From positions 1-64,000 of IMG/VR virus record IMGVR_UViG_3300027833_000028: 64,000 bases of DNA; one strand, given 5' to 3'. The DNA comes from a virus. A program made the position numbers and the translations under genes. The notes beneath the pieces were generated by a model, which saw nothing but the letters and a program-made list of their open reading frames with translations, did no database searches and was not told where the DNA came from. This document shows positions 9,776 through 63,600 of this stretch, one piece after another (position 1 is the stretch's first letter; each line of letters opens with the position of its first letter).

Positions 9776-9797
9776 ACTTGATAGTTATAACAGAAAC

Positions 9798-11232: not shown

Positions 11233-12852
11233 ATGGCAACTCCAGTTTTAAATAATGGGATTTTCCTACGTGATACAAGCTACAAAGCTAGTTCTCATGT
11301 TGATTCTTATCACCTTACCCAAATGCTTGGTAACCCTGAGCCTATGGATATGGGACCAATTGATCTATGGGCTATGACCCAAAAGGTAGAAATGCCTTTG
11401 TATCAAATGGCTTCATTCGGTGGAAAGAATACAATCATGGTGGATAACGCTAGAGGTGAGTACAAGTGGCAAACTCCTATTGCACAAGATCTTCCCTACA
11501 TAGTAGCGGATATTGAACCAGGCTCCTCCACTAAAGGTGTAGATGGAACAACATTTAAGATCAAAATTAACAAAAGAACTTTTGGACACGGTGACATTAT
11601 TACTTATGATAAGTATAATGGACTTGAACTTTACATCACAGCTGATGATATTATCCCAGCAGGTGACGGTTATGTTTATACTGTTCAATTAGTTAACAAC
11701 AACAATGCGGCTATCTTGGATAACAAGTATTTAGCTAAAGGTACAAAGTTCTTCAGAAAAGGTTCTGCAAGAGGTGAGTACGGAGAAAGATTCTCTGACA
11801 TTGAAACAGGTTCTGGTTTCCGTGAATTTTACAATTTTGTAGGAGGAGCAGAAGCACATGTACACTATTCAATTTCTTCTAGAGCAGACTTAATGATCAA
11901 AGGCGGATTAAACGCTGATGGTACTGTGCCTGTTACTGAAATCTGGAGAAACTTTGACAATGATCCAAACAATCCATCAGTACCAAGTATTGAAGGACTT
12001 GTAGCAACTATGGGTAAAGCTGGTGCTAGAGATGCATTTGAAAATGGAACTCTAACACGTACTTTCATTACAAATATGGAAGCAGCACATTTATCTAAAA
12101 TTGCAACGGATATTGAGACTTACCTAATGTGGGGTAAAGGTGGTAGAATTAAACAAGATGGACCGGATGATATTAGATTATCTGTAGGTTTATGGTCACA
12201 GTTAGATAACTCTTTCAAGAGAGTATATAACAAGTCATCATTTACTCTTGACATGTTTAAGTCTGAACTTTACAACTTCTATCAAGGTAAAGTTGAATTC
12301 AAAGGGCCAGACCCACAAAGATCACTTGTTGTACAAACAGGTATTGGAGGTATGCAACTAATCAACAAAGCAATTGCTGATGAGGTGTATGGTTCAGGTC
12401 TAGTTCAAAATGCATCAGATATTGGAGCTGTTAAAGGCTCAGGTATGGATTTAGATTATGGTTTTGCTTACACAAGCTTTACTATTCCTTTCTTAGCTAA
12501 CGTTAAGTTTGTATTGAATCCAGCATTTGATAACTTAAACACAAATGATATTGAGAATCCATTGATTGATGGAAGACCTCTAAGTTCATTTAGCTTTATT
12601 ATCTTTGATGTGACTGACGAAGGAAATGACAACATTCACTTGTTGAAACTTTCTTGGGATAATCAACTCAAGTGGTTCTACCAAAATGGTACTATGGACT
12701 ACATGGGAAGAACTCAAGGGTTTGCTTCTACTGGTCAATTCAATGGATATAGAGTTTATATGACTCAGACTATGCCAGCTATTTGGGTTAAGGATCCAAC
12801 CAAAGTTCTTAAAATTGTAATGAGAAACCCTGTAACAGGAGGATCATTCTAG
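11233..12852 (+). CDS. Major capsid protein
   Basis: A 539-aa protein following the scaffold, with no coiled coil and an even alpha/beta composition expected of an HK97-fold shell protein of the larger crAss-like type. Features include an N-terminal arm with Pro/Met-rich text (QMLGNPEPMDMGPIDLWAM), a central E-loop-like region and a Gly-rich C-terminus. The codon choice includes more C-ending codons than neighbours (for example TTC, AAC), consistent with high expression. It is followed 12 bases later by a strong terminator, as expected for a dominant late transcript. No short diagnostic motif exists, so the call is by order, size and composition. Confidence 0.87.
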   Translation: MATPVLNNGIFLRDTSYKASSHVDSYHLTQMLGNPEPMDMGPIDLWAMTQKVEMPLYQMASFGGKNTIMVDNARGEYKWQTPIAQDLPYIVADIEPGSSTKGVDGTTFKIKINKRTFGHGDIITYDKYNGLELYITADDIIPAGDGYVYTVQLVNNNNAAILDNKYLAKGTKFFRKGSARGEYGERFSDIETGSGFREFYNFVGGAEAHVHYSISSRADLMIKGGLNADGTVPVTEIWRNFDNDPNNPSVPSIEGLVATMGKAGARDAFENGTLTRTFITNMEAAHLSKIATDIETYLMWGKGGRIKQDGPDDIRLSVGLWSQLDNSFKRVYNKSSFTLDMFKSELYNFYQGKVEFKGPDPQRSLVVQTGIGGMQLINKAIADEVYGSGLVQNASDIGAVKGSGMDLDYGFAYTSFTIPFLANVKFVLNPAFDNLNTNDIENPLIDGRPLSSFSFIIFDVTDEGNDNIHLLKLSWDNQLKWFYQNGTMDYMGRTQGFASTGQFNGYRVYMTQTMPAIWVKDPTKVLKIVMRNPVTGGSF

Positions 12853-12863
12853 GAACTATAATT

Positions 12864-12900
12864 AAAGGGGAGGGGCTAATACCTCCTCCCTTTTTATTTT
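12864..12900 (+). terminator. Intrinsic terminator after the capsid gene
   Basis: A GC-rich hairpin with left arm AAAGGGGAGGGG, loop CTAATA, right arm CCTCCTCCC and a T-rich tail (TTTTTATTTT). The stem pairs well with one bulged G and one G-T wobble. It ends the scaffold-capsid unit. Confidence 0.85.
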
Positions 12901-12921: not shown

Positions 12922-13164
12922 ATGGCAGCACCAAAACAAATAACTAAGTTGAAGCAACAATTTGAGAGCCCGGCTTATGAAGGTGTATCAAGAGCAGCAA
13001 CAGGAAACGCAAGATTACTTCATGTAAATGAGGTTATTTCTTGGATACGTGATGTAGCTGTTTCTTCTTCTTATGCAGACAATGCAGCAGCAATTGCAGC
13101 AGGTCTTAAACTAGGAGATATATATCATACAGGCGGAGCACTAAAAATTGTTATTGCAGAATAG
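12922..13164 (+). CDS. Small structural protein with fibre-type C-terminal motif, 80 aa
   Basis: The last 30 residues (AAIAAGLKLGDIYHTGGALKIV) match a short motif I recognise at the C-termini of phage head-fibre and decoration proteins, usually written AIAGGLxxGDLYxTGDxLKxV. Here it stands as an independent 80-aa protein. It follows the capsid terminator, so it relies on read-through or a weak promoter. It is probably a capsid-associated protein. The exact location is inferred. Confidence 0.8.
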   Translation: MAAPKQITKLKQQFESPAYEGVSRAATGNARLLHVNEVISWIRDVAVSSSYADNAAAIAAGLKLGDIYHTGGALKIVIAE

Positions 13165-13175
13165 TCAAATACTTT

Positions 13176-13195
13176 AGCAAGGATAAAACCTTGCT
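13176..13195 (+). repeat. RNA hairpin in the 13165-13280 gap
   Basis: AGCAAGG, loop ATAAAA, then CCTTGCT gives a perfect 7-bp stem eleven bases after the 80-aa gene. Only three T residues follow, so it is at best a weak terminator. It may instead be an attenuator or mRNA 3'-end stabiliser. Confidence 0.6.
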
Positions 13196-13221
13196 TTAGA
13201 AATATTAGTAATAATAGAAGC

Positions 13222-13237
13222 GTATACTACGGTATAC
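13222..13237 (+). repeat. GTATAC inverted repeat with UACG loop
   Basis: GTATAC-TACG-GTATAC forms a 6-bp stem whose RNA loop is UACG closed by a C-G pair, a member of the very stable UNCG tetraloop class. As DNA it is a pair of GTATAC palindromes 10 bases apart, like an operator. It is placed about 45 bases before the ATG at 13281. Its role is unknown. Confidence 0.6.
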
Positions 13238-13280
13238 AATTTGACTAGAGTAATAATTATTAATTTTTAAAAACCAAAAA

Positions 13281-14312: not shown

Positions 14313-15017
14313 ATGGAAAATAGTACACTCTTACTTAAACTTAAACAAAGGCTTAACAAGCTTGATAGTCAGGATTATGATAATATTGAATGTTGGCAAT
14401 TTGTGGAAGCTTTTAATAAAGCACAAATAGAGTGGTGTAGAAGAAATTTACACGGGGGTAATATGTATAAGGAAGGTGATGAACTATCTAAAAAAAGAAT
14501 AGATGATTTACAACCATTACTTAGAGAATTAACTCTTACTGGTACTGAGACAGATAATTATTTTGAAACAGATAATTTTCCAGTTGATACATATTTAGAA
14601 TTTAAACGTGTCACTACAGAAGCAAAAGATGATTGTTGTACACCAAGGTCAATGACTGTATATTTAGCTGAAGAAGCAAATGTATCTTTGTTATTGAGAG
14701 ATCCATTGAAGAATCCGGATTTTGACTGGGGTGAAACATTTTGTACAATGCTAGGAAATACAATAAGAATATATAGGAATAGCAATTTTAATATTGTTAA
14801 TCCTATATTAACTTATTATCAAAAACCTACACTAATTCAAGTTCAAGGTTGTGTTGATCCTTATACAGGTGACTTAAGTTTAGTAAATGTAAATTGTGAA
14901 TTTAAAGATGATTTAGTAGAAGTTATGTTAGACGATACTGCTGCATTAATTGCAGGTGATATTGAAAACATATATCAATCTCAAAGAGGTACACAAGCTG
15001 CAGAAAGAAACAATTAA
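14313..15017 (+). CDS. Candidate head-tail connector/ring protein, 234 aa
   Basis: N-terminal helical segment (LLLKLKQRLNKLD, CWQFVEAFNKAQIEWCRRNL), a beta-rich middle, and a C-terminal helix VEVMLDDTAALIAGDIEN followed by a polar tail. A beta core with a late acidic helix plus polar tail is what I recall of connector proteins that follow the capsid genes in crAss-like and other Bacteroidota phages. There is no enzyme motif. I judge it a structural connector with moderate confidence and cannot assign a ring number. Confidence 0.8.
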   Translation: MENSTLLLKLKQRLNKLDSQDYDNIECWQFVEAFNKAQIEWCRRNLHGGNMYKEGDELSKKRIDDLQPLLRELTLTGTETDNYFETDNFPVDTYLEFKRVTTEAKDDCCTPRSMTVYLAEEANVSLLLRDPLKNPDFDWGETFCTMLGNTIRIYRNSNFNIVNPILTYYQKPTLIQVQGCVDPYTGDLSLVNVNCEFKDDLVEVMLDDTAALIAGDIENIYQSQRGTQAAERNN

Positions 15018-15027
15018 TATATGATTT

Positions 15028-15143
15028 TACACAAAAATTGTGTATATTATTATAGTAACACAGAAGTTACGAGCAGAGTAAACTGTTAAAATCATTTATA
15101 TATAACCAGTGAGGGTAATGGTCTTCACACAAAATTAATAATT
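15028..15143 (+). promoter_or_regulatory. Promoter motif and structured leader of the 406-aa structural gene
   Basis: The gap holds TTGTGTATATTATTATAG (15038-15055), a member of the recurring motif set, overlapped by a 7-bp inverted repeat TACACAA-AAA-TTGTGTA (15028-15044). A second small hairpin GTAAC-acagaa-GTTAC follows at 15055-15070. If transcription starts just after the motif, the untranslated leader would be about 80 bases, longer than elsewhere in the window. This suggests RNA-level control or stabilisation of an abundant transcript. Confidence 0.45.
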
Positions 15144-16364
15144 ATGGCTTATTTTAATCATGCGTTTAACAAGACGTTTATTGCAAATAGCACGCTGGAA
15201 ACAGCTGATACTGCAACAAGCGCACTTACCGCTGGTCAAGTAGCTTTAGTAAGTGATGCAACTTGGGCATCTGTAGCAATACCGGGAGCACCTGCAAAGG
15301 GAGCACTTGGCTACATTGTACAAGGTTCATTCTATACTAAAGATACTATTGGAAACAATCCAGGACACGGTGGGTATCAAGAATCTGTAAAATCTAAAGG
15401 GATTAACCCAAGATATATTACAAGATTATGGAGTGCAACATGTCAGTCTGCTGTACAAGCTACAGCTAGCTTATCTTTAGCATCTGATTGTGCACCATGT
15501 GGTAAAACACAATTTATGAGAATTGACGTGAAGGGATCTCCTGCACTAAGATTCTTAAACCACAATGCATATGCTATTGGTGATTCTGCCAATGTATGTT
15601 GTATTGAAGGACAAGAGTTTATTGATCCAGCAGTAGTTGCTGCAACAATGGCTCAGATGGTTCTTGGAGATCCACTAATCAAGCCTTTTGTAGCTGAGAA
15701 AAATGGTGGTGGTGTAGATGTAACAGTAACTACAGGTGGTGTAGGTACAACAAGTACTTATACAATTGCTGAAGTATTAGACGGAACATATACTCCTTCT
15801 ACTGATCCTAATGGAGTAGATAAAGTATCTGTAAAAGTAAACTTTGTTGGAGCTTATGTAGATACTGTATTTGGAAATTGTTCTTTTGACACAAGAGATC
15901 ACTTTAATGCTGAGCCAGTAGAAATCATTACTTCATTGTTAGATGAAACTGGTAATCCATGTAATGACTGTGGTGTATCTGAAAGAACTCCAGGACAAAT
16001 GCAACAGACTCAAGGTGAAGAAGTAATTAGAGATTTAATTATGTCTGAAAGATACCGTCAGTCTCCTTATAACCAAGGAAATGCTGATAGTGCAAGATTC
16101 AGAGAAATTGAAATGTCTGATGAATTACTTTCTGCTGTTGATAGAAGTGCAACTTACAAAGCATATTACGTACAACATTCTGTACCAAGATTTAACAATC
16201 CATCTGGAGTGTTTGATAATGATCAGTATGTATACAAGATTTTTGTAAAATGTTCTGATGCCGCTGCTCAATTAGAAGCAGAAGTTTTAATGGATGCTTT
16301 AGCAACCTGGGCTGATGGAACAGGAAACTATGTACCATTTGAAAAAGATATAGACGCAATTTAA
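15144..16364 (+). CDS. Probable major structural protein, 406 aa
   Basis: Ala/Thr/Val-rich soluble protein with several Cys residues (CQSAVQ, CAPCG, VCCIEG, CNDCG) and a beta-rich central domain (TVTTGGVGTTSTYTIAEVLDG). It is a single-gene unit with its own promoter-like motif, long leader and a near-perfect terminator, and it uses more C-ending codons than its neighbours. All of this points to very high expression. In a crAss-like layout it could be a capsid auxiliary or decoration protein; a tail-tube role is less likely because the tail genes look podoviral. No family motif was recognised. Confidence 0.85.
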   Translation: MAYFNHAFNKTFIANSTLETADTATSALTAGQVALVSDATWASVAIPGAPAKGALGYIVQGSFYTKDTIGNNPGHGGYQESVKSKGINPRYITRLWSATCQSAVQATASLSLASDCAPCGKTQFMRIDVKGSPALRFLNHNAYAIGDSANVCCIEGQEFIDPAVVAATMAQMVLGDPLIKPFVAEKNGGGVDVTVTTGGVGTTSTYTIAEVLDGTYTPSTDPNGVDKVSVKVNFVGAYVDTVFGNCSFDTRDHFNAEPVEIITSLLDETGNPCNDCGVSERTPGQMQQTQGEEVIRDLIMSERYRQSPYNQGNADSARFREIEMSDELLSAVDRSATYKAYYVQHSVPRFNNPSGVFDNDQYVYKIFVKCSDAAAQLEAEVLMDALATWADGTGNYVPFEKDIDAI

Positions 16365-16387
16365 AAAAGCAACTATATTTAAATAAT

Positions 16388-16422
16388 AGAGCAGGGGAGA
16401 AATCTCCTGCTCTTTTTATTTT
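16388..16422 (+). terminator. Strong intrinsic terminator with GAAA tetraloop
   Basis: An 11-bp stem (AGAGCAGGGGA with TCTCCTGCTCT, one G-T wobble) is capped by a GAAA tetraloop and followed by TTTTTATTTT. It is the most regular terminator in the window and closes the single-gene unit of the 406-aa structural protein. Confidence 0.92.
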
Positions 16423-16435
16423 ATATTGTCTGTTA

Positions 16436-16458
16436 TTTTTTGTATATTATCTATATAG
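16436..16458 (+). promoter_or_regulatory. Late-promoter-like motif before the fibre region
   Basis: A run of six T then GTATATTATCTATATAG, 20-40 bases before the ATG at 16478 and 14 bases after the terminator tail. It is one of the best copies of the recurring motif. It does not match the host TAnnTTTG element, so a phage-specified polymerase or sigma activity is possible. Confidence 0.5.
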
Positions 16459-16477: not shown

Positions 16478-17053
16478 ATGGCAAGCAAACATATATTAAG
16501 TTTAGAAATACCTACAGTATCAAACTGTGATTTACTGTGTATTAAAGATACAAGTCAATACAGTTCAGAGCTTGCTGTGGATTGTGAAGAACTATTAATT
16601 ACACTACCTGGATTTAGTGTACCAGTACTTATAAAAGTAGATAAAGAATTTGACATGTGTTTGACTGCATGTACATTAGCATTACAAACATTAAATTGTG
16701 GTACATCTCAGGATAAAATCCCTGACGGAATATACATTGTTAAATATAGTGTCTCACCTAACTCTAAAGTTTATGTAGAATATAACCATTTAAGAGTAAC
16801 TAGATTGCTTACAACATACTATGAAGTGTTATGTGATTTAGAAGTACAAGCATGTCAACCAGATTCTGATAAACAAGAATTGTTATCAGAGATGAGTTTT
16901 ATAAAAACTTTAATAGATGCAGCAGTAGCTAATGTAGAATATTGTCAATCTGCCGTACAAGGAATGCAACTATATAATTATGCTAAAAGTAGATTAAACA
17001 AAATTGCTTGTCCTTCAGGAAACTGTGGATCAAGCTCAACATATTTAACATAA
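16478..17053 (+). CDS. Conserved Bacteroidota-phage structural protein, 191 aa
   Basis: I recognise the layout from many Bacteroidota phages: IPTVSNCDLLCIKDTSQY near the start, a beta-sandwich with LPGFSVPVLIKV, DGIYIVKYSVSPNSKVYVEY and NHLRVTR, then a helical C-terminal half with a conserved run of small residues and a closing Cys pair (ACPSGNC). It typically precedes the tail-fibre genes together with the Cys-rich mini-protein that follows here. It probably acts as a fibre-attachment or tail adaptor subunit, which is inference. Confidence 0.85.
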   Translation: MASKHILSLEIPTVSNCDLLCIKDTSQYSSELAVDCEELLITLPGFSVPVLIKVDKEFDMCLTACTLALQTLNCGTSQDKIPDGIYIVKYSVSPNSKVYVEYNHLRVTRLLTTYYEVLCDLEVQACQPDSDKQELLSEMSFIKTLIDAAVANVEYCQSAVQGMQLYNYAKSRLNKIACPSGNCGSSSTYLT

Positions 17054-17244: not shown

Positions 17245-17787
17245 ATGGCTAAAGCAATAAGATCATATTCTAATGCAGAGCAAGTAAAAGAACAAGCTTT
17301 AATAAAAAGAATTAAAGTAGAACAAACTTTTGCTAAGCAAGTATACGCTAATTTTCAATCTATTAGATTTGGAATAGAAGCATGCTGCTATACAGATATG
17401 GAACAAGCTATACTAAGAAAAGATATATGTGATTGGCAGAATGCCGCAAGTTTTAAAGTTATTGCTGCTACAGAATCACCAGGTGTATTTGTTGAACCAT
17501 TAGCTAAAATAAATTTAAAAGCAAGCATGAGTTGTCCTGAGACACCATCAAGTGTTTGTACAATATTAGATTTAGAAGAGATATTAGAAGATAAAGGGAC
17601 ATACACAGTATGTTTTGAAGAAGCATCTAGTGTATGGACTGTATCACACAATTTAGGTAGTTTTCCATCTGTTACTGTTGTAGATAGCGGTAATACAGTA
17701 GTAGTGGGTAATGTAGATTATATAAGCAGTCAACAATTAGTAATAACATTTAATGCATCATTTTCAGGATGTGTATTTTTAAATTAA
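17245..17787 (+). CDS. Fibre-module adaptor protein, 180 aa
   Basis: The N-terminal half is helical (residues 5-60), and the C-terminal 65 residues form a small beta module with WTVSHNLGSFPSVTVVDSG and a closing Gly-Cys-Val-Phe-Leu strand. That module (W-x-V-x-H-N-L-G ... P-x-V-x-V-V-D) is familiar from the ends of phage fibre and baseplate-adaptor proteins. Its position before the first long fibre suggests a trimeric or chaperone-like connection between tail and fibre. Confidence 0.8.
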   Translation: MAKAIRSYSNAEQVKEQALIKRIKVEQTFAKQVYANFQSIRFGIEACCYTDMEQAILRKDICDWQNAASFKVIAATESPGVFVEPLAKINLKASMSCPETPSSVCTILDLEEILEDKGTYTVCFEEASSVWTVSHNLGSFPSVTVVDSGNTVVVGNVDYISSQQLVITFNASFSGCVFLN

Positions 17788-20237: not shown

Positions 20238-20284
20238 AAAGGGGAAGCATTTAAATTAAAAATTTAGTGTTTCCCCTTTTTTTA
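20238..20284 (+). terminator. Intrinsic terminator after the first tail fibre
   Basis: AAAGGGGAAGCA pairs with TGTTTCCCCTTT across an A/T-rich loop, with one G-T wobble, followed by a run of seven T. It lies 16 bases after the fibre stop and runs into the next promoter motif. Confidence 0.85.
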
Positions 20285-23788: not shown

Positions 23789-26700
23789 ATGGCAACTATA
23801 CCAGGCTCACAAAGATTATTAGATATTGATGGTGACAAGTTACATTCAAGTGTACAGCTAGGCACTGATGATGCATTCTTGGATAGTTCAGGATCTGCTG
23901 GCTCAAATGGTCAGGTACTTAGTAGTACAGGTTCTGCTGTAAAATGGGTTAATGATCAGACAGGTACAAATAACTATGTATCAGGTGTTAGCTTTAATAC
24001 TAGCAATGGAGTTTTAACAATGACACGTTCAGGTCTAGCAGACCTTACAGTAGATTTAGATGGTAGATATTTAACATCTGCATCAAACTTTTATCTCAAT
24101 GGTATAACTAAATCAGGTAACATACTAACGTTTAGCGTTAGTGGTGCAACTAACCAAACATATACATTTGGATCAAATGCATTTAATAGTTCAACTATTT
24201 ATGCTCAGCCAGGTATATTTAGTGGTGGTGGTACACCAACTTTAGCTTCCGGTGTAACTGGAGCAGAAGTAAGGTCATTAATTGGGGCTGGAACAGGTTC
24301 AGGATCTATGAGTTCTTGGACAATAAAAGAAGGTAATGGTACTGAGTCAACTTCTGTTACTAATGGAGAGACTTTTACTATTGCTCAAGGTACAGGTATT
24401 ACATCTGAGATGACATCAACAAGTAGTGGTGGAACTATAACCATTACTAACACACTACCAGATACTGGTAGACCAGCAATATTATCTGATGGAGCAACTC
24501 CAACTTTAAATACAGGGATAACTGGAGCAGAGGTTAGATCTCTTATAGGAGCAGGAACAGGAAATGGTAGTTCTAACTTAGTTATTGGTACAACATCAAC
24601 AACTGCAATGGCAGGTAATACTACAACTATCACTGCTCAACAAGCTACAGATATTGTAAATAACAATAAGAAAATAACAGATAGTGGAACACCAGCAGTT
24701 TTATCTAATGGTACCACTCCTTCACTAAACTCAGGAATATCAGCTTCAGAAATGAGAAATCTTATTGGGGCAGGTACAGGTAATGGATCATCTAATTTAG
24801 TAATTGGGACTACCTCTACAACAGCTAAGGCAGGTAATATAACTACTATTACAGGTGCTCAAGCAACTGCCATAACTGCAAATACTGCTAAGAAAACTGA
24901 TACAGGAACACCAGCAATTTTGTCTAATGGCACAACACCTACTTTAAATTCAGGTATATCTGCTGCTGAAGTAAGAACCCTTATTGGAGCAGGTACTTCA
25001 AGTAGTGCTGGAGTTACAAGAGTAAGAGGTACTGCAAATAGAATATCAGTAACTGCAGGAACAGATCCTATAGTAAATGCAATTACAGGTACAGTAACTT
25101 CTTCTTCTGCTAATTTAGCAACAGGAGCTCAGATACAAACAGCTATTAATTCAGCTGTAACAGGAGTATTAAAGTATAAAGGAACTTGGGATGCTGCTGC
25201 AAATAGTCCAGCACTAATAAGTGCAAAGGGAACTGTTGGTGAATATTATATTGTTTCTAAAGCTGGATCAACAAATTTAGATGGAATTACAGATTGGGCA
25301 GTTGGTGACTGGGCAGTATTCTCTGATCAAGCTACAGATGCTTGGCAGAAAATAGATAACACTCAAGTAGGTAATGTAACAGGTAGTGGTTCATCAGGTA
25401 GAGTAGCATATTGGAATGGCTCATCTAACATTACAAGTGATGCAGGATTAACATTTAATGGCAGTACAAATGCTTTAACGGTTAGTGGTGCGGTAACTTG
25501 GAGTGGTGGTAGTTCAGCAGAATCTAATTCTGCATATGATAATACTATTACAGGATTCTCTGATAGTGGATCTTCAACAAAGACTTTAACATTAACACAA
25601 AGAGATGGTGGTACTTTAACAACATCTTTTAGTGTACCACAAGGAACAATGTCTTCATGGACTATTAAAGAAGGAAATGGAACAGAAAGTACAGCTGTTA
25701 CAAATGGTGAAACATTAACAATAGCACAAGGTAGTGGTATACAATCAGAAATGACTTCTACAACTAGTGGAGGTACTATTACTATTACAAATACAGATAA
25801 AGGTTCTTCTCAAAATATATTTAAAAATGTAACTGATGGTAAATTTACTACTACAGCTAATGTAAATAATGATACTTTAACTATTGTAGGTTGTAAAGGA
25901 ACAAATATAGAAATTGATGAAGAAGCACAGACTGTATCTATATGTGCCGATCAGCAAACATTATCCGTAGTAGGACAAACACTTACTATTAGTGATGGTA
26001 ATTCTGTAACAATGCCAACTAATACAGGACCGCAGGGTCCTAAAGGTGATCAGGGTATACAAGGTATACAAGGAGTTACAGGTTCCGCTGGTGCCAAGGG
26101 AGATCAAGGTGATCAAGGTATTAGAGGTCTTACCGGAGCTGCAGGAGCTGCCGGTGCCAAAGGTGATACAGGAAGTCAAGGTATACAAGGGATACGAGGA
26201 TTAACTGGAGCAGCTGGAGCAGCGGGAGCCAAAGGAGATACTGGAGATAGAGGTCTTCAAGGTATACAAGGAAATCCTGGTGCAGCAGGTGCTAAGGGAG
26301 ATACGGGAGCAAGAGGATCTGCGGGTGCTGCTGGTGCAGCCGGAGCAAAAGGGGACACAGGATCACAGGGTGCAAAGGGTGATACTGGATCACAAGGTCC
26401 AGCTGGTCCTAATGGTGGAACATATCACTACACAAATTCAGGTGATAATGCAAGTAAATATAGATTTTGGGGTACTTCATCTACTTATGGTATTGGTATG
26501 GTGTCCGGTCAATCTTATGGTTATTTAAATGACTATGCTACAGTATTCCAAATGAATAATGATGCAGACCGTGGATGGGTTTGGAAATATGAAGGTCAGG
26601 GAAATAATGATGGTGCTATGTCACTAACAACTTCCGGTAAATTAAAAGTTAAAGGAGTTGTTGATGCTGGTTCTGTGGCTATAGATGGTAATGAAGTAAT

Positions 26701-27292
26701 TAATATTAAAGGTGATTGGGTTGGTAATCCCACAGGTTTAACAGGACCTAAAGGAGACACCGGTTCACAAGGTATTCAGGGTATTCAAGGTGCTACAGGA
26801 TCTCAGGGTCCGGCTGGTGCTAAAGGTAATACAGGTAGCACTGGTGCTGCCGGTACTAATGGAACTAATGGAAGTAATGGAGCACCGGGTGCAACAGGTT
26901 CCACTGGACCAAAAGGTGCAACTGGATCAGCTGGAGCTACAGGAAGTCAAGGACCACAGGGACCACAAGGTGATAAAGGACCTACAGGTAGTCAAGGACC
27001 AACCGGAGACAGAGGGCCTCAAGGTTTAACTGGTCCAACAGGGAGCCAAGGCCCGCAGGGAATACAAGGTCCTGCAGGTTCTAAAGGTAATACGGGAGCT
27101 ACTGGTGCACAGGGACCTAAAGGAGATCCTGGTCAAGATGGTTCAAGTTTTCCAGTTAAGGTTGATTCTAAAGACAGTTCAATTAAAAGCATGGACTTTT
27201 TTGTTGAAGGACAAAAATTCCCTATTATGCAGATAACACTAGAAGACGGAACACAACTTTGCTTTACTGCAGGAGATTGTCCTAGATTTTAA
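23789..27292 (+). CDS. Collagen-like tail fibre, 1167 aa
   Basis: Residues 1-130 are a fibre N-terminal segment shared with the 528-aa fibre ([15 protein letters not shown]). Four copies of a module ending in E-V/M-R-x-L-I-G-A-G-T lie at about 148-170, 234-258, 305-332 and 379-403. A 49-residue block ([15 protein letters not shown] ...) is duplicated at 174-222 and 621-669. Residues 463-530 are the widespread fibre module YKGTWDAA ... GEYYIVS ... VGDWAVF. Gly-X-Y collagen-like stretches occupy about 747-876 and 984-1117, separated by a globular beta domain (about 878-980). A short C-terminal cap contains two Cys residues. It starts two bases after the preceding stop. It is presumably a trimer forming a long rod with receptor-binding caps. 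Confidence 0.9.
26027..26416 (+). repeat. First collagen-like Gly-X-Y coding block
   Basis: About 43 consecutive Gly-X-Y triplets with frequent [10 protein letters not shown] and GIQGI units. The DNA is a degenerate 9-base periodic repeat, richer in G+C than the flanks, which produces long spurious open frames in the other reading phases. Confidence 0.9.
26738..27139 (+). repeat. Second collagen-like Gly-X-Y coding block
   Basis: About 45 Gly-X-Y triplets near the C-terminus of the same fibre, with more Pro (GPQGPQG, GPTGSQG) than the first block. It forms a second triple-helical rod after the internal globular domain. Confidence 0.9.
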
Positions 27293-28099: not shown

Positions 28100-28148
28100 C
28101 AAAATTTTTTAAAACTGGCATTAACTTGTTTGGTTTTAAAAAATTTTG
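28100..28148 (+). repeat. Perfect 16-bp inverted repeat overlapping a promoter motif
   Basis: CAAAATTTTTTAAAAC at 28100-28115 is the exact reverse complement of GTTTTAAAAAATTTTG at 28133-28148, with a 17-base loop. The right arm supplies the TTTTG that begins the next promoter-like motif. A 16-bp perfect match is unlikely by chance even in A/T-rich DNA. It could be an operator, a cruciform or an A/U-rich 3'-end hairpin. Confidence 0.8.
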
Positions 28149-28166
28149 TATATTATAAATGTATAG
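28143..28166 (+). promoter_or_regulatory. Late-promoter-like motif before the VWA fibre gene
   Basis: ATTTTGTATATTATAAATG followed by TATAG, 40-60 bases before the ATG at 28207, matches the recurring TTTGTATATTAT core exactly. It overlaps the right arm of the inverted repeat ending at 28148. Confidence 0.5.
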
Positions 28167-30450: not shown

Positions 30451-31017
30451 ATGGCTTGTAATTGTACAAAATGTAGTAATAAATGTAGTTGTGCTGATAC
30501 AGCATTAACTAATGCATGTACTTATACTGATTGTAGTGTAGGTAGTGAAAGATGTAATGATGTTCAAAGTGCAGCATGTGTAAGCTATACGGGTACATCA
30601 TTTCAAATAGGTGATACTAATAGTAAAATAGTTATAACCTCCGGTGAACGGTTGGATTCTATTATACAAAAGTTTTCTATGATACTATCAAATGGGTTAG
30701 GGGCTTGTACTTCTAATGATGTTCAGCATGATCCATATAATGTATATGCAGGTGTAATAACTAGTAGTACTATTTCAGTATTGTGGAATGGCATATGGAG
30801 TAATAGTACAGGTATTAATATATATACTGCACCTCAAATAGGAGGAGGAAGTAATGTCTGGACGCTACAGAATAGTACACCAATTGTTACTAATGTAAGT
30901 AATTTTACTATAACAAATTTAGTAGCAAGTACAGCATATAAGGTAAAAGTTGTTGATAACGGCAACAGTGCTGCATGCAAACCAATAGAGCTTTTAATTT
31001 CTACTCTAGCAGCATAA
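30451..31017 (+). CDS. Cys-rich and Fn3-like structural protein, 188 aa
   Basis: The N-terminal 45 residues hold about ten cysteines (MACNCTKCSNKCSCADT and on to CVSYTG), suggesting metal binding or disulphide bonding in the mature particle. A short helical linker follows, and residues about 90-188 form an Fn3-like beta-sandwich (ITSSTISVLWNGIW, later STAYKVKVVDNGN). It probably works with the preceding VWA protein, 15 bases upstream. It is followed by a strong terminator. Confidence 0.83.
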   Translation: MACNCTKCSNKCSCADTALTNACTYTDCSVGSERCNDVQSAACVSYTGTSFQIGDTNSKIVITSGERLDSIIQKFSMILSNGLGACTSNDVQHDPYNVYAGVITSSTISVLWNGIWSNSTGINIYTAPQIGGGSNVWTLQNSTPIVTNVSNFTITNLVASTAYKVKVVDNGNSAACKPIELLISTLAA

Positions 31018-31063
31018 AAAAACAACACGTGGTGGTTTGTTGGTTTTCTACTACAAACGTTGG

Positions 31064-31098
31064 AAGAGGCTGGATATATTCCAGTCTCTTTTTTTTTC
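31064..31098 (+). terminator. Intrinsic terminator ending the fibre region
   Basis: AGAGGCTGGA, loop TATAT, TCCAGTCTCT gives a 10-bp stem with one G-T wobble, extended by an A-T pair, then a run of nine T. It separates the adsorption module from the phosphoesterase gene. Confidence 0.9.
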
Positions 31099-54690: not shown

Positions 54691-57600
54691 ATGGAAAACG
54701 AATCAAAAACACCATTACAAGAACTCAACCAAGCATCTTTAAGACCTGCCCCAAGTGTAATACCTGACGGGCAGTTCCGCTTTGAGCCTATTGAAGAGTT
54801 GTTTGAAACCCCAGAGGAAAAGTTTAATGATTATGCTATGAGTGGTAATTTAGCTGCTGATGATATATCTGGAGTTAATTTAGTGAAGTCTGATATAGAT
54901 AAATATGGTATTGGAGCTATGGCTAGTTTGGGTATAGCTGATCCTGGTACTGCTACTGATACATATAATCCAATAAAACAAAATAGACCTGATAGTAATG
55001 AGAATACCTTTTCAATGACGAAGAGGTTACTAACTTTAGATGACACACCTGTGTCAGAGAAAAAGGTTGCCCCTGCATTTTCAGGCATGAGGCAAACTCA
55101 ATTTATGAGGTATTACGAACATCCTGAATTTAATAACTTAGGATATTCTCCATATGCAAATATGGAAAACTACTATAATGAAAACTCAACTATTTATGAT
55201 GACATGGCTAGGATGAGAGGAAACTGGTGGTCATTAGTTGGTACTGGTCTTGATTCTGTATATGGATCTATGTTTAGTGGAGGAGATTTTTTAGAACCTG
55301 ATCTTGAATCTGCTACTGCATTTGAAGACAAGATGGGAATCATGAGTTCTACAAGAGGTGGTTTTGGAGGCTTTGTAAATAACCTAGCAGCTAACTCTGC
55401 TTACACGGGAGGTATACTTATTTCTATAGCAGCTGAAGAATTGATATTAGCTGGAGTAACTGCTTTGTCTGGAGGTACAGCAGCACCAGTTACTATTGCT
55501 AAGACAGGTGCAAATGTTGTTAAAGGTGCTAAAGCAATTTTTAGCTTTACTAAAATGTTTGAAAAAACAAGAAAGATATTATCAAAAGCTAAAGAGATTG
55601 AAACTGCTAGAGATTTTTGGGTTGCCGCTAATGGTGGTAGAAAGATGGTTGCTGGTGCATTAAAAAAAGGATTTACCCCAAACACTTATAAAGCATTTAA
55701 AGAAATAAAGACTGCAAAAAATGCAGGTCAAAATATGTCTAATCTTGCCAAAATGAATTTAAAGTTTGGTGGATTTTATAGAGATATGAGAGCTGTTAAT
55801 TTAGCTGCGTCAGAGGCTAAGCTTGAAGCAGGTATGGCATACAACCAAGTCTTGAAGAATGGTATGAATAATTATTCTGCTGCTAATGGAGGCAAGAGTG
55901 TTGATGAATATGAAATGTCAAGAATTAGTAATGCGGCTAATAAAGCAGCATTTAAAACTATGATTGCTAATGCTCCTTTAATATATGCAAGCAACTGGCT
56001 TGTTCTTGGTAATGCATTAGGTGGATTTCAAAGAGGTGTTCAAAATACATTAGGTTCTGCTTTTGGAAAAGGCATTACTAAAAATGTAATTAATACAGCA
56101 GGTAAAAAAGTTGTTGATGCTGCGGGTAAAGTAATTAAAAATCCTTTTAAATATTTAGGAGGAAAAGAAGCAGGGTTCTTAGGACTCAAAAGATTAGGTG
56201 CAAAAATTAAAGCTGCTGGTGGTTGGAAAAGTGTGGCTGGTAGTGGTAGTATAGTTATGTTAGATTACTTTGCTGCAAATGTTGCAGAAGGTATACAAGA
56301 AGTTTCTCAAGAAGCAATTTCTGCAGCAACTGTTGGATACTATACAGAAATACTACAGAACCCAGCACAAGGTGGAGTTGCTTTGCAAAATCAAATGATA
56401 CTATCAGCAATGGGAGATCAGTTTTCTTCTGAAGGTGCTGGTGTATTTATGTCTGGTTTTTTAATGGGTGGTCTTGTACAACCTGTTCAATCAGTTTTTA
56501 TGCAAGGTGTACCTTCTGTATTTAAGTATGGATTACAGGAAGCAGGTATAGGTCTAGCCACAAAGAAACAAAAGGAAACCTACGCTGAGTTTAGAAAAAC
56601 AAAGGACGAGATGATAGAGAGAATTGTTGACTCCTATAATAAATCTTGGAATAGTCAGGCTATAGATCCTTCTGAACTTTTTGATGTAAATAGATTAAAC
56701 TTCATGGTTCAGAAAGAGATGGCTGAAAAAATGAAAGATAGTACTTACAGACAAGATTTCTTTGGATTTAAAGATGCAGCAGATAATGCTAAGTTTCAGC
56801 AGTTCTATACTATGTTTGAAACTAATGGTACACAAAACTTTAGAAATCAACTACAAGGATTTTTAGAAATGTCTGATACTGAAATGATTGAGGCCTTTCC
56901 TGGAGTATCTAAGAAAGATCAAAAAGATGGTAAGTTAAGACAACGTATAAATGACACTATTATCCAGATGGATAAAATGGAAGAGAATTATAATAAACTT
57001 AAAGATAAATTTATTAATCCATTTGATGAAACAAAATATAACCGCAAGACACAAGAGAAAGAATACATTAATGAGTTAGTAAATAGAGCAGGGTATGATC
57101 ATGCACGTTATTTATATATGTTTACTAATCAAGGATTCATGTCTGCTGTAGAAAGAGCAGATGGAATATACAGTAAACTTCAAGCAGAACCATTATTTCA
57201 AAAAATGGCTGCTAGTGATATTACTACTTTGCTTGACCCAGCATCAATAGAAAGAGAGATAATTATTCTTGAACAAGAAATTGAAGCCTTTGAAGGAACC
57301 CCAGAAGGAGCAGCAACAGCAGCATCACCTAAAAAGGAAAAAATAAATAGACTTAAAGCTATTCAAAAGATTGTTAATGATCCTAAAAATAGATTTAAGA
57401 ACGGAACATTTAAAAGAAACAAGGCACTTAAAGACAGTTTAAGGTCAGAGTTTAAAAACTATGTAAGATTCCTAGCAAAGAATGAAGGTTCTTTTATTAA
57501 TGAAGATAATATTGATTCTGCATTAACTGATATTGTAGACTACTATGCTTTAAACAATAGAGCTAAGGTGTATGATAAGGCAATTGAGTTCATGAATAAC

Positions 57601-60600
57601 CCTGAGAAATTTGCTGAAATGGTAGCTAGATCTCAAGCTCTATCTAAAAATAGATTAGATGGCAGAATTAAAGAAACAAAAGCTGCATTAGAAAAATACA
57701 CAGATATTATTTTAGCAAATCAATTAGTAAATGATTTAACTAAAGATCCAATTGGAGCTTATGCTGATGAAGGGCAAATGGCATTGTTTTTACAAACAGG
57801 AGATTCACGCTTTTTAATAAACTTCTATGATGAAAATGGAGAGATAATTGAAGGTGTTCATGATGTTAAGTATAAAATGATACAAAGACTTATTGAGGTA
57901 TATAACTCTACTAGGTCTGATCAAACAACTGAAAAGGATTTAACAGAAGATCAAAAAGAAGATGCTAAAGTTAATGATGTAGAAAATCAAAAGTCTGATA
58001 TTGAAATGATGCTTGAGAATGCAGGTATTGAATTATCTGTTGATACAATAACTATAAGCCCATATCTAGATGAGGTCTTAAGAAACGCATATAGAAAGTA
58101 TAAAGCAAGAATGGCTGCCTCTGGTAAGCCCAGCTTATCTGCACAAGAATGGAAAAGTACTGCTGAGGCATTAGATTTAAAAAATGTTTTTAATGCTATT
58201 AAACAAGTATGGGCAGCTGGTGCAATGACACAAAACCCTGCTGGAGAAACTTTATTTACAAGTCCTATAGAGCAATCACTTGTTGACTCTGATACAGGAT
58301 TTAAAGAATTTTTATCTACACCTAAACAGCAATTGTTAGCAGAGAACCCATTAATTACTTCAATATTAAATCAAACAACTATTACACTAGATGATATATT
58401 TGAGCAACCAAACGTTGCTGATAATACAGAAGTAGCTGGAGGAGTAGATCCTGTTGGTGAAGGTGTAGTTGCTGATCTATATAAACGAGAAGTAAAAACA
58501 TCCGGAGAAGAAACAATTATAATCTATGAGTTACTTGATAAAAAAGGAAATAAATTATCTCCTGAAATATTAGATTTTGTAGATGAACAATTTGATTCAT
58601 TAAGAGGAACATTTAATGAGTCTCAGGCTACTGAAGCATATGAAGCTTTAAAAGCTATTGATTCACAAGCACCAGATTCAACACCGTTTGAGTTTGATGG
58701 TGTTGACGGTTTGTTTTATGGAATGACTATTTACAAAGGAAGTGAAAAGTATATTATAATTCAAAAGCCTAACAAATCAAAAACATTTGGTAAGAATCAA
58801 AAGCTTAGAGTAATTAAAGCATCTAATAATGTAGGACCAATATCTGAAAGAAAATTTGAGTACATAAAACAAGGTGAGTTTTCAAATGTATTTACTCAAG
58901 AAGAAATAACAATGGATGTATTGGATGACACTGTTAGTAAATTAGATGTCAACTCATTACTTAGTCCTTATGCACATGCAAATAGAGCAGATACAAAAGG
59001 TATGTCTGAAGATGCAATAGCATCAATGATGACATCACAAAATGCTGAAGGTAAGGAAAGATTAAAAATTATATTAAAGGAATTAACTACTGAGGAAAGA
59101 GAACAGTTAGAATTTGTTGTATATGCAAATCCTAGCCCAACAACTGTAAATGATTATGTTATACGTAATATGTCAGGTGTTGAATATAAATCAGCTAATC
59201 CTCTTATAAAAAGATATTCTAGTGAATATGTTATTGGTATTAGAATAAACAATACAGTAACTCAAGAAAGAATAAATGCAAAATTAATTGAACAGAAGGT
59301 TGATCCAAGTGATTCACCAGATGGAATTTTTGCATATATGAATAATGCTTCATTCTTAATTAAAGATCAATTGACAGGAGCTGATGTAGATCCTAGAACA
59401 ATGAACTTAAGACAAGCTCAAAATGTAATGTATAGTGCGTTTGGAAAAACCATTACTACAGAAGAGCAGTTAAAAGAAATACAAAAAGCATTTATTCTAA
59501 ATTCTATAATTACTACAACATTTAACAATCTTGGTGTAGATGGAGAGAAGCAATTCTTTGGTATTAATGATCTACCTTTTAATATTGATTTAAATCAGAA
59601 AGGTGGTAGAACAGTATATAGCAATGGTAATCCTGTGTTTATAGAAGCTCTTGACTATCAATATGCTGATGAAAATAATAACTACTTTGTGTTTGATTTA
59701 AAGTATGACAAAGGAGTTGGTGGAAGAATATATAACTATAGTTCAACTGCAGAGGATAGTGTTGCTTTAGAAAAACAAATTCTCCTTCAATTAGAAAAGC
59801 AAGGTATTAATAAAGATACTATGCTAGCTGGTAAAGACAGATATTTAGCTGCAGTAAAGTTACCCAATGGGCAGTATAGATTGGTTAATCTTAAAGCTGT
59901 ATCATATACAAAAATAGAACGTGATGCACTTTTTGTTGAAATAATTGACAAGTCCAAAGAGATTCAAAAGATTAAAGATGCTGCCAAAAGACAAGCTGCA
60001 GCATTTAAATATAATGAGGAACTGCAAGAAAAACTTTTCCTAAGTAGTGCACGAGGGAATCAAATTGAATTAAACATTGGTGAAGACGGTAGCATATACT
60101 TATCACTTGACAGAACTGTTGGAGAAGAAAATGAAAAGATTGCTAATGAAGGAATTGATACCGATGTAGTTAATTCAGATACAGATGCTGTTAAGATTAT
60201 AGAAGGTTTATTTACTAAGTATAATAGTAATGAGGCAGTAAATGATTATGATGCAAAAATAAGAGATAAGAATATAAGAAAGTCTTTTCCAACTGGAGCT
60301 CCTACTCAAGATATTATTGATAAGAGTACAACTGAGGTTGCTATACAGGTTGCAACGGACAATTCATTAGTGCTTTCTGCTGAGGCAGATGCAATAAATG
60401 CACAGAGAGCTGTTGCATTTGCTAGCATTAAACCTAAAAATGAAGACAGAAGAGTTGAAGATGAGGCAGCTTTACCTGAGATAGCAGAAGAAGCTGAGGA
60501 TAGTACTGCAGACATGTCAGATGATGAGATACAAAAAAGGGTTGATAATGACTTTAATAGTAATCCATTAGGCATTGAGCATATAATCAATAAGGAACTT

Positions 60601-63600
60601 AGAGGTGAAGAACTTAATGATGCAGAAAAGAAAATGATGAATAACCCTGTTATTGCTAACGGGGTAAACATACGTGTTAGTTTAGCAGGTGGTAGAGGAA
60701 GTCTAGTACCTGAAGGAAAAACAAAAGAAACCTCATTAGATAAAGAAAAAGCAAAACTAAAAGCACTTAGAGATAAATTAATAGAAGGTAAAAAAGGTGT
60801 AGATAAAATTGATGCTTTAGATAAAAGTCCTGAGTATCAAAAACAATTAGCATTAGTAAAGAAGCTTTCTAAAACAGCAAACAAATTAGTTGAAGCAACT
60901 ACAGAAACAGAAAGAATAGAAGACTATAATGAATTTCTTGACTGGGCTAATGAATCATTACCATCTATAATTGGTATTGAAGATATTTTAACATTGGCTG
61001 ATAACGGTATTAGCAAAGGCTACAAAAGAGTTGGTGCATTTGTATTAGATATCCATCAAGTAGCTGGGGGTGTCAGTGTAAACGGAACTGTTTATGTTGG
61101 GGCAAACAATCCATTTAAATATCATGAGGCTTTTCATGGTGTGTTTAGAATGTTACTTACACAAGAACAAATAGATAGATACAGAAAGTTTGCTAAGATA
61201 GAACTAAAAGCAAAATATGGCTCTCAATATAAAACAGAGCTAGAAAAATTTAGAACTTCTGCTAAGCAATATGAAGACATGTCTGATCTTGAATTAGAAA
61301 ATGAATTTGCAGAAGAATACATGGCAGATGAATTTGAAGCATTTAAAAAAGATCCTAGAAGTTCAAAAACCAATACAGAAATAAAATCATTTTTTACTAA
61401 GATAATAGAATGGATTAAAGGTGTGCTAGGTAAATACACATCTAATGAACTTCTAACATTATATGAAAATATTGATGCTGGTAAGTTTAAGAGTGCAACA
61501 TTACAACAAAATGAATTTACTTCTTTAGCAGGAATAACTGTTGCTAATGCTTTAGTAAGACATGATGTAGTATCTAAAGATGAAGATGTATCAGGTTTCT
61601 TATATTTAGATTCTGATGTAGTAGATCCTTTAATTAGATCTATGGCAGGTATGTTTATAACTAAGGTTAATAAAATAGAAGAAGCAACTTATAATCCTAA
61701 TGATGTTTATAATGACTTGTCTAGAGACTTTAGAGTCTTATTAGATCCAGATGACCCAAGCAATAAAATCTTAGGGCCTGGTAAAGTTAAACAACTTCAA
61801 GAATTAGAAGATGCATTTACTAATTACCCAGAAGATATTAAGAAAGAAGTTTTTGGTTTAATTAATATTATATCAGATCAAGATTCACAAAATGAATTAA
61901 ATTCAGAAATTGAAGAGGACGGAACAGGAGTAAGAAAAGCAGATGAATTTGATAAAGATGCATCTGAGATAGGTGGATTTAATTCATTGGCTCAGAAGGT
62001 GAGAGCATATATTGCTACAACAACAATGGTAGGTGTTGACTTTTTTGGTAAGACTGAATTAAAAGATGGTGTGCCTTTGATTGTACCTGTCAAATTTAAT
62101 GAAGCATATAACGGATTATTAAAAGCTGTTTCAAACATAAGTGATCCTATAGTAATGCTAAGAAGGATGTATACATATTCAAGGTTAAATCCTAATATGT
62201 CTTCTGTAGTTGATAAGCTATTTAATGATGCAAACTTAGACCTTGATACCTTGGCTTCTGATACACCATTTATAAATGTATCTAATCCAAACCTATTACA
62301 ATCAATGCTTAAAGGTTTTGAAAACTATAAGGTAGATTATTTATTCAATGAAAGAGATGGTGCAGGAAACATACTAATATACACCGCATCTGAAAGAGAT
62401 GATATAAATGCTCAACTAGACGAATGGTCTCAAGCATATATATTTAAAAGAAAACAAATGAACCTTGATGCTTCAGGTAGCAGGATAGAGGATTTACTTG
62501 GTCTGGTTAAGAACATGGAGAATATACTTGGATCAAAAACCAAGAACAAATCAAACGAAGCAACTCAAAAACTTGCAGTAGAGCATTCAGAAAAATTATT
62601 TGAATTAACTGGGATAAGATTAAGTCCAATGTTTCTTAACTACAGTTACGTTAAAACATTTGACTACAGTAAACTAGATGCTGAGCAAAAGATATTATAT
62701 AACTCATATTCTATAGAGCCAATATCAGAACAGTTCTTAGTTACTTTGTATGATCTTATGTATAAGGATTCTAATATATTTTCTAAGAAGTCTGATGGTA
62801 TGGCTTCTAGACTTACCTATATCAGTTTAAGTAACGCTGCGCTTGATGAGTCTATTGGAGCATCTTCTTTTATTAATCCTAATGGAGATTTGGTTTATGG
62901 ACATCAACTACCAACTTATCATTTAAAAGCGGTAGCACAATTAAACAACTCAAATATATTAGATAAATTTTCTGCTGATAAATATTTAGATAGAAATTAT
63001 TTATTAAATAATGTAGCATTTCTAAATTTATCTGATCAAGGTAGAATTAAAGTAACTAGAATAGCAGGTAGTAAAATAAAATCTGTTGTTTCTACTGATC
63101 TAAACAATGATGCTCAAGAAGATATATTAAATACATCTTTGAATGATAGTAGATCTACACAAAGCTTTGGTGAGTTTACTCCTCAAGAGTTTGCTGTATC
63201 TTTAATTAATAATTACGTTGCTAACTTTAACAGAAGAAGTGGTAAGAATGATATGGTAGATGGTGTTGGACAAATACCTACAGCAACAGCACCTGTATTC
63301 TTACGAGTTATGGAAGCTGCTAATACAGGAGACTTAGTTAGTCTGCCTATAATTAAAGCGGTAACAATGAAAGGTGATAATGTTGAATTAACACCTCAAC
63401 TTGTAAATGCATTTATAAATAGAATAGCATCAGAGTTTGAAAGAATAAACAGAGAAGCTATAGCCTTTGAAGAATTTGGAGATAATATTGCAGGTTATAA
63501 TGATTCTATGCAAGGCAGAGCATTTAGTTTTGTAAACACAGGTTTGTTATTAGATCCTCTTACTCAGCAAACATTAGCTAATGTAGCTATCACAGCAGGT

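Follow-up and report, generated by a model that had tools for sequence, protein, structure and literature searches.

A divergent AUX capsid protein of a Crassvirales-type phage, probably expressed from its own single-gene unit with a structured RNA leader

The 406-aa gene at positions 15144 to 16364 (+ strand; ATG at 15144, stop codon at 16362-16364) of the window, as we call the whole 64,000-nucleotide stretch of DNA analysed here out of a virus record of 88,598 bases, is best explained as the gene for a divergent form of AUX, the auxiliary capsid protein of Crassvirales and counterpart of crAss001 gp36, and as one that forms its own single-gene unit with a structured leader (probability roughly 0.8). 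Judged by its sequence matches, the phage is of the Crassvirales type, as it encodes a crassvirus major capsid protein (MCP; 11233 to 12852, + strand; Pfam PF23898, Crass_capsid, E 1.4e-30) and a tail ring protein. The product of this ring (tail adaptor) gene, the 5' neighbour of the AUX gene (14313 to 15017, + strand), shares 27% identity with the annotated ring protein of csAssE-Sib (E 6e-7) and matches phrog_29507 (E 4.9e-5); the frame at 32990-33664 matches PF25702 (CrAss_Ring_2, E 1.3e-18), and the terminase and portal match PHROGs. Among phage records, the best MCP matches include Leptolyngbya phage Lbo-JY46 (29% identity), gut phage csAssE-Sib and Cellulophaga phages phi17:2 and phi4:1, and from the kind of its relatives we take the phage to be environmental. 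The genes run in the order 439 aa, MCP, 80 aa, 339 aa, ring and 406 aa, which is the crAss001 order of gp31, gp32 (MCP), gp33, gp34/35 (rings) and gp36 (AUX) with the exception of the 80-aa frame and the single ring gene, and the 406-aa gene thus lies where an AUX gene belongs, after the ring gene and downstream of the MCP and gp33-type genes. Toward the window end, an alternative genetic code was considered and rejected, as 54691-63999 is one open frame; it exceeds 3,100 codons, runs off the end of the window and perhaps, as in other crassviruses, encodes a giant RNA-polymerase-type protein. At 23789-27292 lies the gene for a 1167-aa protein that contains collagen-like G-x-y repeats as well as repeated blocks.

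Predicted structure, together with gene order, makes the 406-aa protein almost certainly a divergent gp36-like AUX. Structure prediction, which the original prediction had named as a check, gave an AlphaFold2 model (mean pLDDT 80.2) that matched crAss001 gp36 (7qof_a) with Z 15.3 over 300 of 333 residues (rmsd 4.3, 14% identity) and has the gp36 architecture of a PH-like domain with an inserted FliD-like FD domain. In a Foldseek search of the PDB a single match reached E ≤ 0.001, a crAss001 chain at E 1.9e-7, and 16 viral models in BFVD did so; they include structural proteins of Cellulophaga phages phi14:2 and phi17:2, and at least 10 are crAss-like by name. The conceivable alternative, that this is another virion protein, which has no more than a flagellin/FliD-like domain in common with AUX and lies after the ring gene by chance, would fit the missing sequence match to gp36 and the fact that the model region 102-287, which resembles FliC/FliD, by itself also matches these and other phage proteins with Z 4 to 8. 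We consider it hardly credible, however, since the gp36 alignment spans residues 4-402 and hence both domains, the gp36 score is almost twice the Z of 8.2 reached by the first unrelated chain, modelling a 503-aa homolog as well gave the same result (Z 14.1 for gp36 and 5.3 for the first unrelated chain), crAss-like phages come up in the viral library, and the gene position is identical. The FD domain of gp36 is itself described as resembling FliC/FliD, and the AUX fold as unique to crassviruses among viral capsids (PMC10172136).

Sequence tools, in contrast, miss the protein. Nothing usable was found in PHROGs, the PDB (sequence and profile searches), phage records (0 of 50,697 matched at E ≤ 0.01) or Pfam (no family at E ≤ 0.1), and PF25650 (crAss_AuxCP), which gp36 itself matches at E 1.1e-152, does not detect it. 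Profile comparisons of alignment A1 were insignificant with gp36 alone (E 0.39), with seven gp36 homologs (E 0.13, 0.5% probability) and with the 650-aa phi17:2 type (E 0.0025, 12% probability, counted as insignificant). Because PF25650 misses a protein whose model has the gp36 fold, we call it a divergent AUX: it lies outside PF25650 as that family is modelled, and what we claim is the same fold, place and role. The suspected role of a major decoration protein is hence borne out by the model and by gene order and homology; the notion of an unrecognised family or a new type is not, as the protein, though new and divergent in form, is of a known kind. In crAss001, AUX and MCP each occur nine times per asymmetric unit (PMC10172136). 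As an AUX protein, the 406-aa product should likewise sit on the capsid surface in a number about equal to that of the MCP, and, judging by fold and position, hundreds of copies would presumably be needed.

Homologs of the protein are encoded by 509 stretches in one viral collection; the best 80 of these 509, representing 79 loci, were used, and 34 of the 79 loci plus the window protein made up an AUX alignment of 35 rows. Like gp36 (7qof_a, PF25650), the window AUX has a two-domain predicted fold, a position after the ring gene and a crassvirus MCP nearby, but it is longer (406 versus 333 aa), and whereas gp36 starts 31 nt after gp35, the window gene is flanked by a motif, leader and terminator of its own. 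At least 33 of the 35 AUX homologs share seven cysteines, with CxxC pairs at 116/119 and 273/276, whereas CxxC occurs in none of the seven gp36 homologs, a contrast that counts against our reading; possibly these residues form a metal site or disulfides. Small cysteine-rich proteins are encoded at 16478-17053 (191 aa, 3' of the AUX unit; 5.8% cysteine), 17245-17787 (3.9%) and 30451-31017 (5.9%), and the MCP has no cysteine. Some homologs, unlike gp36, carry an inserted domain: in that of locus L068 about 80-100 extra residues (about 187-285) interrupt the FD domain, resembling domain I of the T4 tail sheath protein gp18 (Z 4.8-5.3), with a Pfam Gp18_dom_I match (E 0.0055) that falls below the cut-off. 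The insertion is also found in L049, L060, L062, L064, L069, L072, L077, L078 and L079, which amounts to two changes on the tree, and we take scattered PHROG matches of single homologs to stem from this putative domain. Two further proteins with matching predicted folds come from the Cellulophaga phages, one of 338 aa in phi14:2 (S0A3H3; E 5e-11, 12% identity) and one of 650 aa in phi17:2 (R9ZWX4; E 3e-10, 9% identity), the latter longer than the window AUX, annotated as 'structural protein' and likewise encoded after a ring-type gene. Extra outer-shell proteins with a role like that of AUX are found on the HK97-type capsids of T4 (Soc/Hoc) and lambda (gpD); none of other phages' decoration proteins, such as these, was among the fold matches listed.

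The AUX gene very probably has a promoter motif, a leader and a terminator of its own and is expressed apart from the MCP unit. A promoter-like motif, AAAAATTGTGTATATTATTATAGTAA (15033 to 15058, + strand), identified by matrix score and by its recurrence in relatives, precedes the gene, and an intrinsic terminator with an 11-bp stem, a GAAA loop and a T-rich tail, as originally described, follows it (16388 to 16413, + strand); the next promoter-like motif (16433 to 16458, + strand) belongs to the 191-aa gene at 16478. This order of motif, gene, terminator and next motif was complete in 51 of 61 distinct flank sets of AUX relatives, with the upstream motif (at most 1 mismatch) in 56, the terminator in 60 and the next motif in 56; the terminator rule was satisfied by 4 of 300 shuffled 150-mers. 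The upstream motif had more than 1 mismatch in L005, L007, L009 and L015, the next motif was missing from L035, L039, L040, L046 and L057, and by the rule used L049 lacked both upstream motif and terminator. Coordinates and recurrence in relatives thus confirm the earlier picture of a gene with its own motif, leader and strong terminator. Its description as insulated holds downstream, where the terminator lies, but not upstream: a terminator was sought between the ring gene end (15017) and the AUX motif and was not found, so that transcription may read through from upstream. Ranking the terminator best in the window was right by folding energy, narrowly, among the three that were folded (-18.6 kcal/mol, compared with -18.4 for a terminator-like hairpin of 13 pairs at 31062-31092 and -16.9 for the terminator after the MCP gene at 12864 to 12894, + strand), but with 11 pairs it comes third behind 13 and 12. 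Another strong terminator-like hairpin, AAGGGGAAGCA...TGTTTCCCCTT with a long loop, follows the 800-aa gene (about 20239-20281).

The motif sequence TTGTGTATATTATTATAG (15038-15055) occurs once in the window, even at up to 3 mismatches. With a matrix built from the AUX promoters of 55 relatives the AUX site scored 28.7 bits, a value that is partly circular, as the matrix was trained on close relatives; maxima in 10 shuffles were 6.9-14.6 bits. Other strong sites in the window start at 28139 (29.0 bits), 9794 (23.2) and 45295 (18.1), and the site at 16433-16458 scored 11.7 bits, inside the shuffle range. The site at 28139-28164, which slightly outscores the AUX site, precedes a gene for a 742-aa protein with 3.2% cysteine. 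The best site upstream of the MCP gene is the one at 9794, which already lies ahead of the preceding 439-aa gene; together with the MCP gene's own terminator this suggests that the two shell-protein genes, MCP and AUX, probably sit in separate transcription units. The structural and lysis genes of crAss-like phages are described in PMC10136315 as one cohesive transcription unit. Two further candidate signals were dismissed: CAGAGTAAA, which precedes the MCP gene in the window (11191), L001, L058, L072, L077 and L079, is missing from L005, L010 and L014 and was rejected as a shared signal, and GGTAATGG has 9 copies in the window, mostly within genes.

From the end of the motif to the ATG the leader measures about 90 nt, within the 80-100 bases originally given, but holds three helices, not two small hairpins. 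Helix 1 (GTAAC-ACAGAA-GTTAC; 15055 to 15070, + strand) lies at the likely 5' end of the mRNA; CAGAGTAAACTG (15074 to 15085, + strand) may form a 3-bp helix 2 or be a conserved single-stranded element; and helix 3 (GTGAGG-GTAATGGT-CTTCAC; 15108 to 15127, + strand) carries a loop with an invariant AATGGT. Folded singly, the leader reached -16 kcal/mol with a z of -1.05, and 28 of 200 shuffles were equally stable, so that the lone sequence would not establish a structure; comparison of relatives does. A hairpin directly after the motif (score of at least 7, reached by 10% of shuffled AUX segments) was present in each of the 42 distinct AUX leaders whose motif could be recognised at the expected distance, those with an over-diverged motif being excluded, versus 10 of 44 other motif sites; at a score of at least 8 the counts were 32/42 and 1/44. 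These 42 hairpins comprise 20 different stem sequences. When 47 distinct AUX leaders were scanned more loosely, L018 and L055 had only weak A-T hairpins, and L015 yielded none, as its motif went undetected at the expected site; all three lie outside the count of 42.

Leaders of the window's clade (30 of the 80 sequences, the window included; 19 distinct leaders) add CAGAGTAAACTG and the third hairpin. CAGAGTAAACTG was identical in 19 of 19 clade leaders chosen with at most 2 mismatches, and 97.8% of 360 cells paired in these leaders, with four trial pairs to the loop counted in. A larger set of 47 distinct leaders, most of them retrieved with an exact pattern holding CAGAGTAAACTG and GGTAATGGTC constant and 4 of them incomplete at the 3' end, paired in 99.8% of 647 cells, with 26 double-change cells versus 4.5 in shuffles (0 of 500 as high) and 0-6 for slid partners. 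Helix 1 was paired in 47/47, with double changes at 2 of 5 pairs, and helix 3 in 99.6% of cells, with compensatory changes at 4 of 6 pairs; the pairs of helix 2 are invariant, and support from covariation is confined to helices 1 and 3. Searched in the viral collection, the leader pattern hit 83 stretches, in every case ahead of AUX; 78 read directly into MAYFN, and in the remaining 5 the script took as start an in-frame ATG further upstream, with MAY after it. The extra leader, lacking in 26 of the 35 rows of the AUX protein tree, maps to one change (support 100/97) and thus to one gain or one loss.

Several other readings of the leader were set aside. No Rfam 15 family matched in the window at gathering score, and the sole hit at E ≤ 5 was a plasmodium snoRNA (16.2 bits) on the opposite strand; neither a tRNA nor another known RNA was found. 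A conserved upstream micro-ORF from the loop ATG (MVFTQN-stop in the window) was rejected because frame and stop are not kept across those leaders that were read by eye; the loop ATG is in frame with AUX in five loci. Pairing of an ACCA (columns 67-70 of alignment A2) with the loop TGGT, compatible in 98.7% of cells with zero double changes, was not adopted, there being no connecting loops on two sides. A shallow search of the literature on hairpins, untranslated regions, transcription and promoters of crAss-like phages and crAss001, covering few subscription papers, did not turn up the leader.

The folded region at about 13162-13247 (+ strand), ahead of the 339-aa gp33-type gene (13281), is on comparative sequence grounds a second conserved structured leader, whose stems change sequence and keep pairing. 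Within its outer helix, TAGTCAAAT/ATTTGACTA, lie the stems AGCAAGG/CCTTGCT and GTATAC/GTATAC along with a linker, TTAGAAATATTAGTAATAAT, whose conserved form is TTAGAAATATTARTAATAAT; other relatives have AACTCAAAA/TTTTGAGTT as outer helix, and their inner stems differ and still pair. About 130 nt upstream of the 339-aa homolog were examined in 31 relatives, and an outer helix of at least 7 pairs was scored by script in 22 of 32 sequences versus 20% in shuffles; several of the misses arose because inner stems were misplaced, and a few of the 22 hits represent some helix other than the one sought. This leader has no counterpart among the Rfam families.

We propose that this Crassvirales-type phage expresses its AUX decoration protein from a short mRNA of its own, and that promoter, folded leader and terminator probably help it to make the right amount. 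Transcription would start about where helix 1 begins, helix 1 would close the 5' end and slow decay, and the terminator hairpin would protect the 3' end, a set of steps to which we give even odds. Helix 1 would in this respect resemble the stabilising 5' hairpins of bacterial mRNAs such as ompA and papA, as a small hairpin where the 5' end of the mRNA is expected; it holds a fixed place after the promoter motif, and the comparison assumes, from the phage group, a Bacteroidota host. Such a 5' hairpin can stabilise mRNA and hinders RppH (PMC3997798). It was originally argued that only very abundant proteins merit such an arrangement, which is unsound here, since the equally abundant MCP has a plain, A-rich leader of its own and a shared upstream promoter. 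Abundance alone thus does not explain the structure of the AUX leader, whereas a need to tune AUX separately would; that the equally needed MCP lacks such a leader counts against our explanation as a whole. More tentatively, and at less than even odds, the clade-specific CAGAGTAAACTG and helix 3 with its fixed loop may exert cis-acting control over translation or stability, perhaps as a binding site for a phage or host protein, and so tune AUX to the MCP.

A stricter form of such control would be an autoregulatory operator, in which helix 3 and its loop are the target of AUX, or of another capsid protein, that would stop its own translation once capsids are saturated. A fixed loop on a covarying stem is typical of protein-bound hairpins, and the element stands ahead of AUX only; moreover, AUX must match the MCP in number (PMC10172136), yet the two appear to be separately transcribed. 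We nonetheless regard this operator as doubtful, because the tree rows that lack the element have equally complete AUX genes, and because about 16 nt separate helix 3 from the ATG, which is left uncovered. Somewhat more speculative is the idea that the AUX leader represents a new class of structured cis-acting phage RNA, in which a covarying 5' hairpin and a protein-binding hairpin with an AAUGGU loop sense free capsid protein and set AUX against MCP.

Helix 1 could also be a dyad in the DNA, an operator or activator site that overlaps the transcription start, and not an RNA structure at all. Its near-fixed spacing after the promoter motif and the nearly constant GTAAC stem letters within the clade would suit this reading, which we find improbable: the many stem sequences, of 5-9 letters and with varied loop lengths, are more natural for an RNA stem, and the same motif elsewhere mostly lacks a hairpin. 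Far less probable still is a hairpin promoter of the kind used by the phage N4 virion RNA polymerase. Some of the hairpins, TGTGCA-CGG-TGCACA among them, recall such promoters in their short stems and small loops, and crassviruses carry their own virion RNA polymerase (PMC10136315), but the same source has the polymerase of phi14:2 and crAss001 as reported or thought to act on early (and middle) genes, with late genes probably left to the host enzyme; in addition, the hairpin lies downstream of the motif, and most other motif sites have none.

These findings name a protein that sequence tools cannot, in a widespread group of phages, and widen the range of crassvirus outer-shell proteins to cysteine-rich forms with sporadic inserted domains. 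They also describe an RNA leader that is backed by covariation and serves a single capsid gene, and this allows a concrete test of how two shell proteins needed in equal number are balanced. If the AUX leader does sense capsid protein as outlined above, and the second leader, ahead of the gp33-type gene, is counted with it, several capsid genes of this lineage would be under control at the RNA level.
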